Shown piece after piece: positions 10,580 to 16,380 of a stretch of DNA of 37,478 nucleotides (position 1 is the stretch's first letter; every line of letters begins with the position of its first letter). The notes under the pieces were generated by a model that was not told the origin of the DNA, made no database searches, and saw only the letters and a list, made by a program, of their open reading frames with translations. This stretch comes from Clostridia bacterium DTU025 (lineage in GTDB: Bacteria > Bacillota > DTU025): positions 1-37,478 of the forward strand of contig LFSP01000039.1 in NCBI GenBank assembly GCA_001513145.1. Reading direction: 5' to 3'. The position numbers and the translations under genes were made by a program.

Positions 10580-10697
10580 ATTAGTGTCTCTCCGAGCCCG
10601 TCGCGCTGTAGCCGCGATGCACGCCTGGCCAAGGGTGACGGGCCGACAGGGTGCGACTGGAAACTGTCGTGCCTCCCATTGCGGAAAGGAGAGCGGC
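10580..10697 (+). ncRNA. Moco riboswitch (molybdenum cofactor motif)
   Basis: Cis-regulatory RNA that senses molybdenum (or tungsten) cofactor. P1 pairs CTCTCC (10588-10593) with GGAGAG (10688-10693). A perfect inner stem pairs GCCCGTC (10596-10602) with GACGGGC (10637-10643). A hairpin pairs GTGCGAC (10651-10657) with GTCGTGC (10666-10672). The most diagnostic part is CCTCCC (10672-10677), five bases, then GGAAAGG, closely matching the 3' part of the E. coli moaA leader as I remember it. An alternative CGACAG/CTGTCG pairing (10644-10649 with 10664-10669) may be part of the switch. The call rests on primary motif and pairing and has not been scored by a covariance model. Confidence 0.85.
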
Positions 10698-10756
10698 TGG
10701 TTCGGTCTGTACTGCCGCGCCCGCGCGCTTTCCGGTGCCGGGCGCGGCTTCTTTCT
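10693..10756 (+). terminator. Riboswitch expression platform: terminator with antiterminator arm
   Basis: A perfect 10-bp stem pairs GCCGCGCCCG (10714-10723) with CGGGCGCGGC (10739-10748) and is followed by TTCTTTCT. GCGGC (10693-10697), directly after and sharing one base with the 3' strand of P1, can instead pair with GCCGC (10714-10718) and break the terminator. Ligand-stabilised P1 would then favour termination, so the likely logic is off when cofactor is plentiful; the direction is inferred. Confidence 0.75.
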
Positions 10757-10786
10757 AGCGCCTGGACTAGAACTGGAGGGTCTAAA

Positions 10787-12151
10787 TTGTCAGGCAACAA
10801 ATGTACTCGCATCTGCGTGGAACGTCTGCTCATGCCGCTGGGGCTTACGGCCGTGGTGGCGACGGTGCTGATGGCGCTGGTGGTGGCGCTGGCGCTGGCG
10901 CCGGCGCCACCAGTCTCGGCAGCCTCGGCTGACGGGTTCCTCCAGAGACTCTCCGGCTTCGGCCAGACGGAGCTGGTGTTCGCCGTGGCTGGCGATCCTC
11001 AGGGGAGGGAAGAGGTGTGGTCGCAGGTTGTGAAGGCGCTCAACTCCGTGTCGCCTGCGCCCAAGTTCACGCTTCTCCTCGGCGATCTGGTTGCCAGCGG
11101 CACAGAGCCGCAGTACAAGGCTTTCGCCGACAGCGCCAAGGCGCTGAAGATGCCGTTCTATGCCGTGCCCGGCAACCACGACATCAGGGGCGACGGAGCC
11201 GCCCTGTTCCGGCGATATGTGTCTGACAAGCTGTACTACTCGTTCGAAGAAGGCGGCTACAAGTTCATAGGCTTGAATACCGGCGACGGCCAAGTCGACG
11301 CGGAACAGATGCAGTGGCTCCAGAAAGAGCTTGCAGGGGAAGGTCGCAAGATCGTGTTCATGCACATCCCGCTTGAGGACCCCAGGCCAGGAGGCGACCA
11401 CGCGCTGCTTGGCAGGGCGCAGGCCGACGAGCTGCACGCGATGTTCGCTTCGTCCAACGTGGTCGCGGTGTTCAGCGGACACGTGCACATGTTCGCCCAG
11501 CACGAGGCGGACGGCGTGCTCTACGTCACCTCCGGAGGTGCCGGCGCCGCGCTTTACGCATCGCCGGAGGAGGGCGGCATGTTCCATTTCGCGCTGGTTA
11601 GGGTGAGGGACGACGAGATCACTGTGGAGCCCCAGCCGGTGCAGACCCAGGTGACCGATCCCAGCGTCGAGGTGAGCGGCCCCAGCGGGACCATCAAGTA
11701 CAGTTTGGGGCAGCTCATGCAGATGTCGTCGGTGGAGGGAGCGTCCGCCTTCGAGAACAGGTTCGGCAACTTCACCGGCCACGGAGTGTACCTGGGCGTG
11801 CCCGTGGCCGACCTCGTGGCCGCGGTCGGCGGAATCCAGCCCGGCGACGTGCTCCGGGTGCAGTCCAGCGACGGCTACGAGCAGGACTACGCCTACGATA
11901 ATGTCCATCCCACCCCCCAGTGGGCCGAGCTGCAGGGCATCATGGTGCTTGCCGTGGAGAAGGATGGGATTACCATGCCCGCGTGGGGCGACGGCCCGCG
12001 AATCGTGTTCATCCCGCCCGACGGCTTGTACCACAACACCGACTGCGCGGCCACGTCCGCTCCAGGGCAGGGGTGGAACGTGTATCAATCCGCAGGGGCC
12101 CGATGGGCCCGGTACGTCAGCAGGATCCAAGTTGTGCCATCAGGAAACTAG
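10787..12151 (+). CDS. Secreted metallophosphoesterase fused to a molybdopterin-binding-like domain
   Basis: Predicted exported protein of 454 residues. A signal peptide or anchor (about 14-45, VATVLMALVVALALAPAP) is followed by a calcineurin-like phosphoesterase domain: AGDPQ at the usual DxH position (His replaced by Gln), LLGDLV, PGNHD, FMHIP and FSGHVH, so most metal ligands remain. The last 170 residues resemble the sulfite-oxidase-type molybdopterin-binding fold (VYLGVPVADLVAAVGG, then VQSSDGYEQDY, ending WARYVSRIQVV) but lack the catalytic cysteine motif. The TTG start at 10787 is six bases after GGAGGG; no ATG candidate is as well placed. As first gene behind a Moco riboswitch it may trim phosphate or nucleotide from extracellular pterin cofactor and hold the product; this role is inference. 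Confidence 0.8.
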   Translation: MSGNKCTRICVERLLMPLGLTAVVATVLMALVVALALAPAPPVSAASADGFLQRLSGFGQTELVFAVAGDPQGREEVWSQVVKALNSVSPAPKFTLLLGDLVASGTEPQYKAFADSAKALKMPFYAVPGNHDIRGDGAALFRRYVSDKLYYSFEEGGYKFIGLNTGDGQVDAEQMQWLQKELAGEGRKIVFMHIPLEDPRPGGDHALLGRAQADELHAMFASSNVVAVFSGHVHMFAQHEADGVLYVTSGGAGAALYASPEEGGMFHFALVRVRDDEITVEPQPVQTQVTDPSVEVSGPSGTIKYSLGQLMQMSSVEGASAFENRFGNFTGHGVYLGVPVADLVAAVGGIQPGDVLRVQSSDGYEQDYAYDNVHPTPQWAELQGIMVLAVEKDGITMPAWGDGPRIVFIPPDGLYHNTDCAATSAPGQGWNVYQSAGARWARYVSRIQVVPSGN

Positions 12152-12164
12152 GGAGGTTTGAGAA

Positions 12165-13160
12165 GTGAAGAAGCGAGCTTTATTCACCACTGCCATCCTG
12201 ACCATCACCATGATCGCCGTTCTTGCGGCAGGCGTCTTGGCGGGCACCATGTCTCCCACCGACGTGGTCACCCTGGTGTCCGGTTCCAACAGCGTCGTTC
12301 TCACAGCGGGGGATCTGGCTAACATGAACGCCGTGGAAGTGCAAGCTGCCTTCCTGCGCACCACCGGCAGGATCGAGGGCCCTGCAGTTTACAAGGGCGT
12401 GCCTTTGGATGATCTTCTGTCCAAAGTGGGCGGCATGAGCGCGGCGCAGGCCATCAGGGTGACTTCACGGGATGGCTATGCCATGACCTACAGCTACTCT
12501 CAGACCAGGGGCAGCGTGCTGACTTATGACAATGAAGGCAACGTCTCCAAGGTGGGCGGGGTCGAGATGTTCCTGGCCTTCGAGTCCACCAGGGACGGCG
12601 CAGATAGCCTTCCCAGGCTGATCCTGGCCCACAGGGACAACGTAGTCGTTACCGATGGTCACTACTGGGCCAAGCAGGTGGCCAGCATCGAAGTGGTGCC
12701 CGGCGTCGAGGACTGGGTCATCAAGCTCAACGGCATTGAGCAGGCCGATCTGGACAGGTCGGCGTTCGAGTCGATAGTCACGTGCCCCGATACCCCGCAC
12801 CCTGGCGTGAAGGTCACAGTTGAAGAGAAGGACGGATCCACCTCCACCTATGTTGGAGCTCCGCTGTGGGTCATCGTGTCGATGATCGACGGCGGCGACG
12901 CCCCGGGTGGCCACTACATGTTCAATGACGATCTGGCCGCCCAAGGCTACACTGTGAGACTGGTGGCCGTCGACGGAACCACGGTGGACATCGACTCGAA
13001 GCTGATGGCGCGGAACGATGACGTGGTGCTGGCGTACGTCAAGAACGGTCAGGAGCTCCCAATGGACTCCGAGGGCCCGCTGAGGCTGGTGGGCAGCGCT
13101 CTGCCTTCAAGAAGGGACTCCCTGAAACAGATCGTTGAGATCCAGCTGGTGGGCTTCTAG
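12165..13160 (+). CDS. Secreted protein with two molybdopterin-binding-like domains
   Basis: Predicted exported protein of 331 residues with a clear signal peptide (KKRALFTTAILTITMIAVLAA, cleavage near residue 26). Two related domains follow, at about 30-185 and 186-331. The first has TAGDLANMNAVEVQ, VYKGVPLDDLLSKVGG, RVTSRDGYAMTYSYSQ and WAKQVASIEVV. The second has YVGAPLWVIVSMIDGG, TVRLVAVDGTTVDI, LRLVGSALP and QIVEIQLVG. This is the fold family usually annotated as oxidoreductase molybdopterin-binding, but no Cys ligand in a CxGN-like setting is present, so a binding role is likelier than catalysis. The GTG start has GGAGG ten bases upstream, 13 bases after the previous stop. It probably acts at the cell surface with its neighbours. 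Confidence 0.7.
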   Translation: MKKRALFTTAILTITMIAVLAAGVLAGTMSPTDVVTLVSGSNSVVLTAGDLANMNAVEVQAAFLRTTGRIEGPAVYKGVPLDDLLSKVGGMSAAQAIRVTSRDGYAMTYSYSQTRGSVLTYDNEGNVSKVGGVEMFLAFESTRDGADSLPRLILAHRDNVVVTDGHYWAKQVASIEVVPGVEDWVIKLNGIEQADLDRSAFESIVTCPDTPHPGVKVTVEEKDGSTSTYVGAPLWVIVSMIDGGDAPGGHYMFNDDLAAQGYTVRLVAVDGTTVDIDSKLMARNDDVVLAYVKNGQELPMDSEGPLRLVGSALPSRRDSLKQIVEIQLVGF

Positions 13161-13162
13161 GC

Positions 13163-14203
13163 ATGTACTACTTCTCCACCAGGGATCTGGTGCTCATCGC
13201 CGCCACGAGCGCCGCCGGCGGCGTGCTCAGCTCGTACGTGGGCTACCTGGGGAACCTGATGAACCGACTGTTCGGAGTGCCGTTCGGCGCCGGGCAGTTC
13301 ATGGCCGGGCTGCACGTGTTCTGGTTCGTGCTGGCCAGGGCCATCATCGGCCGCACCGGCGCGGGCACCCTCACTGGCTTGCTGAAGGGGCTCGTGGAGT
13401 TCTTCGCAGGCAGCACCCACGGCGCAGTTGTGGTGCTGGTGTCGGTTGTTGAGGGGATCATCGTAGACCTGGTGCTGCTGCCGTACAGGCGGCCTTCGCG
13501 GCCGCCTGCGGCGGCAATGGGTCTAGCGGGCGGGCTGGCATCGGCATCCAACGTTCTGGTGTTCCAGGGCCTGTTCTTTTCCGGAGTGTCGCTGGGATAC
13601 ATCGCCCTCATGCTGGCCTTCGCCTTCATGTCAGGCGCGGTGTTCGGCGGGGTCTTCACCGCCGGCGTGCTGGAGGCCGCCGCTGTTGCCGGGCTTCTCA
13701 AGATACCTGGAGACGGAGGGCATCGCGCGCAGACTAGAAAGCCGCGCAGCGCGGCGTTGCTGCTTTTCTCGGCGGTTCTGGCCCTGACGCTGGCAGGCGG
13801 TGCAGTGTACTACTTCACGTCGGTGAAGGTGAGCTTTGCAGACGGACCTGCCGTGGCGGTGCAGGGGAACATCGAGAGGCCCTACGAGTACCGAGAGGAG
13901 AGCTTCAGCCGCGAAGTGATTACCGTTCGGGCCGAGCTGGTCGGGCAGGTGACGTACGTACCTCCTGCGGACTACTCGGGCGTGCCCATGGGGCGCATAC
14001 TCGAATACGCCAGGCCCAAAGCCAGCGCCGCGAGGCTCAGGGCCATCGGCAGCGATGGCTACGAGGCCATTTTCGACCTGTCGGCGGCCATGGACCAACC
14101 TGATCTCATCGTGCATTTCGACGGTGAAGACTACCGCATCGTAGCTCCCGGGTGGGACGGTGCCTTCTGGGTGAGGAAATTGGCGAGGCTGGTGGTGGAT
14201 TAG
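13163..14203 (+). CDS. ECF S-component (YkoE-like) fused to a molybdopterin-binding-like domain
   Basis: Predicted membrane protein of 346 residues. Residues 1-190 form five or six membrane segments with the pattern of the YkoE-type S-component (GNLMNRLFGVPFGAGQFMAGLH, then FVLARAIIGRTGAGTLTGLLKGLVEFFAGSTHG). Another membrane helix at about 195-217 (LLLFSAVLALTLAGGAVYYF) leads to a C-terminal domain of roughly 125 residues of the same molybdopterin-binding-like type as in the two upstream proteins (DYSGVPMGRILEYARP, AIGSDGYEAIFDLS, WVRKLARLVV). If the helix count is right, that domain is outside the cell. The ATG follows the previous stop by two bases; the EcfA gene starts one base after its own stop. 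Proposed role: capture and membrane passage of a pterin-like ligand. YkoE members usually serve hydroxymethylpyrimidine/thiamine, so that alternative must be considered, but no TPP riboswitch is seen. Confidence 0.72.
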   Translation: MYYFSTRDLVLIAATSAAGGVLSSYVGYLGNLMNRLFGVPFGAGQFMAGLHVFWFVLARAIIGRTGAGTLTGLLKGLVEFFAGSTHGAVVVLVSVVEGIIVDLVLLPYRRPSRPPAAAMGLAGGLASASNVLVFQGLFFSGVSLGYIALMLAFAFMSGAVFGGVFTAGVLEAAAVAGLLKIPGDGGHRAQTRKPRSAALLLFSAVLALTLAGGAVYYFTSVKVSFADGPAVAVQGNIERPYEYREESFSREVITVRAELVGQVTYVPPADYSGVPMGRILEYARPKASAARLRAIGSDGYEAIFDLSAAMDQPDLIVHFDGEDYRIVAPGWDGAFWVRKLARLVVD

Positions 14204-14204
14204 G

Positions 14205-15698
14205 GTGACGACCGCCGCATGGGGCGAGGTCGCGGTTGAGGCTGTCGACTTGAGCGTCTGGTACCCGGGACGGGAGCAGCCCGCGCTGGACAGCGTCAGC
14301 CTGACCGTACGCCAGGGCGAACGGGTGCTTATCACAGGGGCCACCGGCTCGGGCAAGTCCACCTTTGCGCACTGCATTACAGGTTTCATCCCAGGGTTCA
14401 TTGACGCGAGAACCCGGGGCGAGCTGAGGGTTCTCGGACGGAACCCGGCGCGGGCCGACGTGTTCGAGATGGCCCAGTCAGTGGGGCTGGTCCAGCAGGA
14501 TCCCGAAGGCCAGTTCTGCACCATGACGGTGGACGATGAGGTGGCCTTCGGCCCCGAGAACCTCGGCCTCTCCGTGGGCGAGATCCAGCGCCGGTCTGCG
14601 AAAGCTCTGAGCCTTGCCTGCGCGTCGCACCTTTCCGGCAGACGGTTGAGCGAGCTTTCAGGGGGCGAGAAACAGCGGGTAGCGCTGGCCGCGGTCCTTG
14701 CGATGAACCCCCGCGTTCTGTTGCTGGACGAGCCGGCCGCGCACCTGGATCCCGTATCGGCCCGGGCGATGGCCAGAGCCCTTGACGGGTTAGGGAGTGA
14801 GCTCGCCGTCATCGTCATCGAGCACAAGCCGTGGAGGTTCGCGAGCTTTGCCTACAGGGAGATAGCGCTGGACTCAGGAAGAGTGGTTGCGGACGGCCCC
14901 ACCGGTAGCCTCCCCGGTCACGCCACGCCGCCGCGCACGTGGACCCCGGGGCCCCCGGCTCCCGCCCGCGTTGGGGCGCCCGCAGTGGAGGCCACAGGGA
15001 TACGCGCGGGCTACGGTTCTCATCAAGTGCTCCACGACGCCTGGATCAGGGCGTGGCCTGGGGAGATAATTGGGCTCATTGGAGACAACGGCAGCGGCAA
15101 GACAACGCTTCTGAGGGTGCTGATGGGCCTTGTGAAGCCCTGGAGCGGACGCGTGGCCTTCGCAGGGCGCGACGCAGACTCCATGCCTGTGCACCGCAGG
15201 GCCGAGCACCTTGGGCTGGTGTTCCAGAACCCCAATCACCAGATCTTCACCCAGTCGGTGCTGGAGGAGGTCACGATCGGACTCACGGCAAGGGGGATTT
15301 CGCACGCCGATGCAGAGGCGGCGGCCATGCCTGCCCTGGCCAGGCTGGGGCTTGCCGAAAGAGAACGTGAGCATCCGTTGACCCTGAGCTTCGGCCAGAA
15401 AAGGAGGCTGAACCTGGCCGCGGTCGAGGCCCTGAACCCGGGCGCCCTGCTCCTGGACGAGCCGTTCGCGGGCCAGGATCCCGGCAGAGCACAGAGCCTC
15501 GCAGACAGCCTGCGTCTTCTGGCCCAGCAGGGCAGAGCCATAGTGGTGGTAGGTCACGACCCTGACATCATGGCGTGGTGCTGCCACCGGCTGGTCTTCA
15601 TGAAGCAGGGAAGGACGGTCTTCGATCTGAGACCTGAGGAAGCCCTGGAGGAGCTGGAAAGGATGGGCGAGATTGACTACCTCTGGGCGAGCGCGTAG
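14205..15698 (+). CDS. ECF transporter ATPase, two fused EcfA domains
   Basis: Cytoplasmic energising subunit of an ECF transporter, 497 residues, with two ABC domains in one chain (as in YkoD). Domain 1 has Walker A GATGSGKST, Q-loop QQDPEGQF, signature LSGGEKQRV and Walker B VLLLDEPAAHLD. Domain 2, after a Pro/Ala-rich linker at about residue 240-260, has Walker A GDNGSGKTT, Q-loop FQNPNHQIF, signature LSFGQKRRL and Walker B ALLLDEPFAGQD. Both sites look competent, though the second signature has Phe for the usual second Gly. The GTG start lies one base after the S-component stop, without a strong Shine-Dalgarno site, implying coupling. The 3' end overlaps the EcfT gene by 26 bases. Confidence 0.9.
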   Translation: MTTAAWGEVAVEAVDLSVWYPGREQPALDSVSLTVRQGERVLITGATGSGKSTFAHCITGFIPGFIDARTRGELRVLGRNPARADVFEMAQSVGLVQQDPEGQFCTMTVDDEVAFGPENLGLSVGEIQRRSAKALSLACASHLSGRRLSELSGGEKQRVALAAVLAMNPRVLLLDEPAAHLDPVSARAMARALDGLGSELAVIVIEHKPWRFASFAYREIALDSGRVVADGPTGSLPGHATPPRTWTPGPPAPARVGAPAVEATGIRAGYGSHQVLHDAWIRAWPGEIIGLIGDNGSGKTTLLRVLMGLVKPWSGRVAFAGRDADSMPVHRRAEHLGLVFQNPNHQIFTQSVLEEVTIGLTARGISHADAEAAAMPALARLGLAEREREHPLTLSFGQKRRLNLAAVEALNPGALLLDEPFAGQDPGRAQSLADSLRLLAQQGRAIVVVGHDPDIMAWCCHRLVFMKQGRTVFDLRPEEALEELERMGEIDYLWASA

Positions 15699-16380
15699 GT
15701 ACGCGCCCAACCCTTTGGCCGCTGGAGCTCTGCTTGCTGCAATCTGCGTTCTGGCGGTTCGGATCCGTGTGCCTGAGCATGGGGCGGTCCTTGCAGGCGC
15801 GCTGTTCGTGCTCCACTTCGCGCTGGGGCTGACAGACGGGCTCGTGCGGCGCAGGCTCTTCAGGATCGTGGTGTTCGCGGTGTTCCTGTTTCTGGCACAG
15901 CTCCTCCTGGTGAGAGGGCAGTCGGTGGAAGCGCGGATGGCCAGTGGCATGTTGATGTCGCTCAGGTTCGTGAATATCGTGATGGCCAGCAGCCTGTTCG
16001 TGGCGGCCACGGATCCGGAGTCGCTGGCGTACGCCCTTATGCAGGCGGGATTGCCCTACCGATACGGCTACGCTCTGGTGGCAGCTCTCCGGTTCGTCCC
16101 GTATTTACAGGAGGAGACGGCCACGGTGCTGGCGGCCCAGGCGGCTCGGGGCATCGGCGTGGACAGGCCGTCCCTGCCAGGGGTATACCTCAGGGCGAGG
16201 TACACCTTCATTCCGGTCACCGTTGCCGCTCTGAGCCGTGTGGACTCGCTGGCCATGTCCATGGAGGGCCGCTGCTTCGGGTTACATGCCAAGAGGACGT
16301 TCCGCAGGAGAATACCTTTCACGGCGGCGGACTTCCTGATGCTGACTCTTGCCATTGTTCTGTCGGCTCTCATCGTGTAG
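15673..16380 (+). CDS. ECF transporter transmembrane subunit EcfT
   Basis: Membrane coupling subunit that links the ATPases to the S-component, 235 residues with about five hydrophobic segments. The two cytoplasmic coupling motifs of EcfT are recognisable: AAQAARG (about residue 155) and SMEGRCFG (about 198), variants of the paired Ala-Arg-Gly motifs that dock on EcfA. The TTG at 15673 has AAAGGA at nine bases and lies inside the end of the ATPase gene. With the two upstream genes it completes a dedicated group I ECF transporter, in the order S-AA-T. A separate promoter for the following ferredoxin overlaps its last codons. Confidence 0.85.
   Translation: MTTSGRARRYAPNPLAAGALLAAICVLAVRIRVPEHGAVLAGALFVLHFALGLTDGLVRRRLFRIVVFAVFLFLAQLLLVRGQSVEARMASGMLMSLRFVNIVMASSLFVAATDPESLAYALMQAGLPYRYGYALVAALRFVPYLQEETATVLAAQAARGIGVDRPSLPGVYLRARYTFIPVTVAALSRVDSLAMSMEGRCFGLHAKRTFRRRIPFTAADFLMLTLAIVLSALIV

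Follow-up and report, generated by a model that had tools for sequence, protein, structure and literature searches.

A Moco-riboswitch-linked ECF transporter operon with exported pterin-fold proteins: a candidate route for salvage of the tungsten/molybdenum pterin cofactor

The window analyzed here is a stretch of 37,478 nucleotides of the Clostridia bacterium DTU025 genome (contig LFSP01000039.1), designated G000 (2.0 Mb, 97% complete). As shown in Table 1, it contains a leader RNA followed by five genes (P1 to P5), which are as tightly packed as a preliminary description of the locus had claimed: the successive gaps are 13, 2 and 1 bases long, and P4 and P5 overlap by 26 bases. The start codon of P1 is TTG, with GGAGG immediately upstream.

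Table 1. Positions of the features of the operon (window coordinates) and of elements at related loci (locus name:coordinates)
Feature	Position	Strand	Basis
Moco/tungsten-cofactor riboswitch aptamer (RF01055), variant without helix P3	10578-10707	+	covariance model, 68.7 bits, E 1.1e-14
Terminator-like GC-rich hairpin, then U-rich tail UUCUUUCU	about 10714-10756	+	RNA fold, z -1.98
P1: exported metallophosphoesterase with C-terminal pterin-fold (PF00174-like) domain; TTG start	10787-12151	+	PF00149, 1e-14
P1, phosphoesterase domain	about 10979-11572	+	Pfam
P1, pterin-fold tail	about 11678-12133	+	homology to P2
P2: exported protein with two pterin-fold (PF00174-like) domains	12165-13160	+	PF00174, 4.5e-9; PruR best solved matches
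P3: YkoE-like ECF S-component (TM1-6), seventh TM helix, outer pterin-fold domain	13163-14203	+	PF09819, 1e-17
Protein P3, outer pterin-fold domain	about 13853-14197		PF00174, sub-threshold (2e-4)
P4: fused EcfA-EcfA' ATPase	14205-15698	+	two ABC ATPase domains (Pfam)
P5: EcfT transmembrane coupling protein	15673-16380	+	CbiQ/EcfT, 5e-15
Giant surface proteins with six pterin-fold domains	L103:14811-20390, L106:14712-19997, L114:14273-18514
Moco RNA with NAD-type aldehyde dehydrogenase gene	L071:6109-7923, L072:5980-7794, L077:1642-3472, L051:11122-12836		gene named from translation
FMN-binding-domain lipoproteins	L050:193-708, L051:10389-10907
Linked MobB	L050:6909-7658, L134:9786-10541		C-terminal PF04060 below cut-off
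Moco RNA locus of G036	L073:7860-14000

The preliminary description had placed a Moco-type riboswitch and a terminator ahead of the operon. The riboswitch was confirmed with the Rfam model RF01055, to which the leader matches over its full length (model positions 1-135) with a score well above the gathering score of 36. The terminator is probable only, since the GC-rich hairpin and the U-rich tail after it, obtained by RNA folding, were not flagged by a simple terminator scanner; it probably represents the expression platform of the riboswitch. The RF01055 alignment revealed that helix P3 is deleted in the window riboswitch, and this helix is also missing from the operon RNAs aligned across orthologues. 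P3-less Moco RNAs are the form tied to tungsten-cofactor metabolism (Regulski et al. 2008, PMC2408646). Given the absence of helix P3 and the presence of genes for tungsten-type aldehyde oxidoreductase (AOR) in the host, the window RNA is predicted to belong to this tungsten-cofactor type.

Pfam searches upheld the earlier assignments of the P1 phosphoesterase, P2, P3, the double EcfA and EcfT, and the S-component, two EcfA ATPase domains and EcfT required for an ECF transporter are thus encoded together. The motifs D70, GD100, GNHD, H193 and GHVH of P1, unchanged across 12 orthologues, correspond to the metal-binding motifs (D, GD, GNHD, H, GHVH) of calcineurin-like phosphoesterases, of which P1 is a predicted member. 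Its C-terminal pterin-fold domain lies below Pfam detection and was identified by homology, P2 matching the P1 orthologue of locus L033 at 2e-14.

The folds of P2 and P3 were recognized by structure search with AF2 models (pLDDT 85.5 and 89.3, respectively). The modeled P2 and outer domain of protein P3 match proteins of the sulfite-oxidase family and the pterin-binding PruR proteins (7kos, 7kom, 7rkb), the latter being the best solved matches of P2. PruR has no metal-ligand cysteine and binds small reduced pterins, tetrahydromonapterin and neopterin, in a pocket that published work considers probably too small to hold Moco (PMC13259868). The metal-ligand cysteine is likewise replaced in P1, protein P3 and domain 1 of P2. 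Domain 2 of P2 carries an invariant Cys207, whose alignment to the metal-ligand cysteine is ambiguous, and cysteine-ligated capture by this domain was considered and dropped for this reason. The domains resemble PruR in their predicted small exported fold of the sulfite-oxidase type, in most cases without the cysteine. However, PruR works with the signaling enzyme DcpA in Proteobacteria, whereas the domains described here are arranged in tandem or fused to an S-component within a transport operon. They differ from sulfite oxidase and MsrP (PF00174), with which they share the pterin-binding fold, in their single-domain size, in the cysteine replacements and in the lack of any enzyme context.

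The S-component is a homologue of YkoE (5edl at E 2e-14; Foldseek rank 1 for the membrane part of protein P3), in which a Glu/Gln pair reads the pyrimidine of thiamine (PMC5037267). Comparison of the thiamine contacts of YkoE (Trp49, Tyr46, Glu77, Gln95, Asp131) with 48 S-component sequences revealed that the set is only partly retained: Glu77 is kept and Gln95 mostly kept, the stacking Trp49 is replaced by an invariant His, Tyr46 by Ala or Ser, and Asp131 mostly by hydrophobic residues. This pattern, in which the Glu/Gln pair persists and the thiazole contacts are lost, would suit a different ligand with a pyrimidine edge, for instance a pterin. The operon resembles the thiamine/hydroxymethylpyrimidine (HMP) transporter YkoEDC in the S-component fold (PF09819), the EcfA-EcfA' and EcfT proteins and the pyrimidine-reading residues. 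In contrast to YkoEDC, its S-component is fused to an outer domain of the pterin fold, it encodes exported pterin-fold partners and a phosphoesterase, and it is preceded by a Moco RNA in place of a TPP RNA.

A search of 300 genomes of the phylum identified 33 with a match, including 14 strong orthologues of the S-component fusion besides that of the window (44-70% identity). Among named genomes, 119 relatives were identified and 80 of them retained. These originate from Bacillota (including Pelotomaculum, Syntrophomonas, Thermovorax subterraneus and Anoxynatronum buryatiense) and from archaea (Thermoplasmata, the Asgard groups Thor-, Hermod-, Loki- and Heimdallarchaeota, and Methanofastidiosa). 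Profiles of the window families detected the same building blocks around the relatives, and the same arrangement is present in archaea as well as in several families of Bacillota.

According to the Rfam model, 11 of the 14 close orthologues have a same-strand Moco RNA at a distance of 2-5 kb upstream. Of the remaining three, two lie on contigs with less than 3 kb of upstream sequence, and no Moco RNA was found at the third (G057). A custom model detected Moco RNAs at 16 of 22 Bacillota loci from the named genomes; the denominator counts loci whose upstream sequence was long enough or that gave a match, and comprises partly the same records as the 14 orthologues. The RNA is located about 0.1 kb before the S-component gene at L106 and L114, and directly before a kinase gene at L104. 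Since genomes usually carry one to four Moco RNAs, the linkage to the operon is far beyond chance. At archaeal loci, no match to the custom model was obtained, nor any Rfam match in the seven scanned. TPP RNAs precede none of the operons examined; the single nearby one, at one locus, is on the opposite strand. Homologous loci lie under Moco rather than TPP RNAs, which leaves the interpretation of the preliminary description unrefuted. The RNAs belong to the aptamer family, and to the P3-less variant, of known Moco/Tuco regulons, whose targets comprise Moco biosynthesis, oxyanion transport and Mo/W enzymes; an ECF importer is not named among them in Regulski et al. 2008 (PMC2408646).

Moco RNAs were also observed near genes of other kinds. 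In Pelotomaculum-type genomes, giant surface proteins (1,400-1,860 aa) with their own Moco RNA are encoded beside the operon. At four loci, Moco RNAs lie directly upstream of NAD-type aldehyde dehydrogenase genes. This arrangement may constitute a substitution switch, by which a metal-free enzyme would take over whenever AOR runs short of its tungsten cofactor.

Genome G000 contains exactly one other Moco RNA. It precedes genes for a TupABC-like tungstate-type ABC transporter, MoaA and two copies of MoeA, and MoaC follows shortly after them (names read from translations; MoaC, MoaA and both MoeA confirmed by family searches). Three AOR genes and one molybdopterin-oxidoreductase match were found in this genome. 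Since MoaA, MoaC and two MoeA genes are present, import by the operon is not essential in G000. A family search of the genome gave no match to MoaE, the large subunit of molybdopterin synthase, which was not found in most Bacillota carriers either, despite the presence of MoaA, MoaC and MoeA.

AOR is encoded in 48 of the 50 named carrier genomes and in all 23 archaeal carriers. In six-frame searches with Pfam models, MoaA, MoaC and MoeA were all absent from 22 of these 23 (the exception being G332), nearly all carriers being metagenome assemblies and the 50 named genomes having no completeness figures. The same models detect these families in the archaeal controls Methanocaldococcus, Haloferax, Sulfolobus and Methanosarcina, and MoaC was found in every AOR-positive control genome. 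Three of the 22 archaeal genomes are single-contig records titled "chromosome". One of them, G339, was read completely (1.42 Mb, 8,900 masked bases). It contains the operon with an adjacent kinase gene, a MobB homologue, one full-length AOR with the D..GLD motif and a second, weaker AOR-like match; MoaC, MoaE, MoeA and TupA were not found on this chromosome. Two weak matches to the MoaA profile were judged by sequence to be other radical-SAM proteins.

The same pattern (AOR and the operon present, moa/moe genes absent) was found in a Bacillota genus, g5, represented by three genomes (G226, 97% complete, G298 and G250). Just two Moco RNAs occur in G226, one before the operon and the other before an NAD-type aldehyde dehydrogenase gene. 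Since no synthesis genes were found there, a Moco RNA in this genome could sense only externally derived cofactor. Genomes that use the cofactor and lack the genes for making it, as the salvage interpretation predicts, are thus represented among carriers by the 22 archaea and genus g5, all AOR-positive.

AOR co-occurrence alone was rejected as proof of this interpretation, because AOR is encoded in each of the 21 genomes that made up the first set, among them two without the fused operon, G176 and G036; the weight lies on the absence of moa/moe genes combined with the presence of the operon. G176, which has AOR but no moa/moe genes and no operon, speaks against the interpretation, albeit at 84% completeness.

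G036 (98% complete) contains AOR and a divergent version of the operon with MobB and a kinase; MoaA, MoaC, MoaE and MoeA were not found in this genome. At divergent loci (L050, L051, L052 and shorter ones) the S-component is unfused and accompanied by PF00174 proteins, and a PF01663 phosphodiesterase usually replaces the metallophosphoesterase. Genes for EcfA, EcfA', EcfT, MobB, in one case (G284) MoeA, and an APH-like kinase follow; at loci without a Pfam run, gene names rest on custom profiles or translations. Moco RNAs precede the divergent version in G284, G134 and G095.

A kinase profile, seeded from L050 and L052 alone and refined once, gave 45 matches. The APH/RIO-like kinase adjoins about half of the window-type loci, and motifs of the S[KR]KN, GD...RNF and DFEE types are conserved in 38 aligned sequences; no such kinase was seen near the operon of the window. 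Of the two matches on the whole G339 chromosome, the better one adjoins the operon. A swapped phosphoesterase family together with a kinase is what a route of dephosphorylation, import and rephosphorylation would need.

Several further features were noted. FMN-binding-domain lipoproteins are encoded at the start of the divergent operon, which hints at an extracellular redox step. The linked MobB of L050 and L134, unlike plain MobB, has a weak iron-sulphur-like motif at its C-terminus. The sole Moco RNA of G036 is located at a separate locus, where genes for a pair of secreted pterin-fold proteins, a nitrilase-like protein and an ABC transporter of the NitT/TauT type follow it; in this genome without moa/moe genes, they may form another importer of the same ligand, unrelated to the first.

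Taken together, the operon probably serves to salvage the tungsten/molybdenum pterin cofactor (Tuco/Moco) or a close form of it, dephosphorylated or metal-free. This interpretation was put forward in the preliminary description and is supported by the riboswitch score, the Moco RNA linkage and the occurrence of AOR without moa/moe genes. It is refined by the P3-less type of the RNA, the closeness of the domains to PruR and their mostly missing metal-ligand cysteine, and the kinase and MobB of related loci. Counting against it are the biosynthesis genes of G000, the lack of a kinase near the window's operon and the small pocket described for PruR. The putative ligand is, with good probability, a molybdopterin-type pterin, whether metal-free or metal-bound and rephosphorylated. 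It would be caught outside the cell by the exported pterin-fold domains (P2, the tail of P1 and the outer domain of protein P3), and the P1 phosphoesterase would cut off its terminal phosphate or nucleotide. The S-component would accept the trimmed pterin, and EcfAA'T would power its import. In many related loci, the APH/RIO-like kinase probably restores the phosphate in the cytosol, and MobB/MoeA-type proteins may work on the imported product. Sufficient cytosolic cofactor would shut the operon off through the riboswitch.

Whether the metal is already bound may differ between carriers. Since MoeA is absent from the archaea and genus g5, metal-bound import is favored there, whereas the presence of MoeA elsewhere allows metal-free import. 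We tentatively propose, with not quite even confidence, that Asgard archaea, Thermoplasmata, Methanofastidiosa and one Bacillota genus are auxotrophs which import a metallated tungsten-pterin cofactor, traded between microbes, by dephosphorylation, import and rephosphorylation; surface pterin-binding proteins, the phosphoesterase, the ECF transporter and the dedicated kinase would be the parts involved. It is also possible, if somewhat doubtful, that metal-free molybdopterin or a breakdown product is imported instead, with MoeA inserting tungsten inside the cell and tungstate entering separately. Such a route would suit G000 and many Bacillota carriers, in which the other Moco RNA precedes a TupABC-like transporter and MoeA is present, as well as G284, with MoeA in its divergent operon. 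It is at odds with the lack of MoeA in genus g5 and in all but one of the 23 archaeal carriers, and of a TupA homologue in G339.

Other ligands are less probable. PruR, the nearest solved fold, binds tetrahydromonapterin and neopterin without a metal-ligand cysteine, which most pterin-fold domains here also lack, and the operon might thus take up or sense a small pterin of the monapterin or neopterin kind, with no role in Mo/W cofactor metabolism. We consider this improbable, because Moco RNA control, the linkage to MobB/MoeA and the loss of moa/moe genes in AOR carriers point to the metal cofactor. Import of free or chelated tungstate or molybdate, with the pterin-fold domains as metal carriers, is very unlikely: the carriers use tungsten enzymes and Moco RNAs also control metal-oxyanion transporters (PMC2408646), but imported metal would not stand in for missing MoaA, MoaC and MoeA, the S-component is of a vitamin-type family, and the phosphoesterase and kinase would be left without a role. 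Least credible is a YkoE-like thiamine/HMP transporter that lies behind a Moco RNA by happenstance. The homology to YkoE and the kept Glu77 and Gln95 agree with it; the changes at Trp49, Tyr46 and Asp131 and the lack of TPP RNAs before the operons argue against it.

To our knowledge, the Mo/W cofactor is regarded as too unstable for sharing, each organism being its own maker, and we know of no described precedent for ECF import of a molybdopterin-type ligand. In agreement with the preliminary description, which knew of no such importer, no relevant account of an ECF-molybdopterin or Moco-uptake system was found in the open-access literature. A 2026 review states that the passage of pterins through membranes has yet to be explained and that an efflux system for them has not been found (PMC13259868). 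If the proposed salvage function is correct, the operon would give the Mo/W pterin cofactor its first known route of uptake, and Moco riboswitches would gain a new class of targets. The function of tungsten enzymes in moa-less archaea would be explained, and the Mo/W cofactor would become a shared "vitamin".
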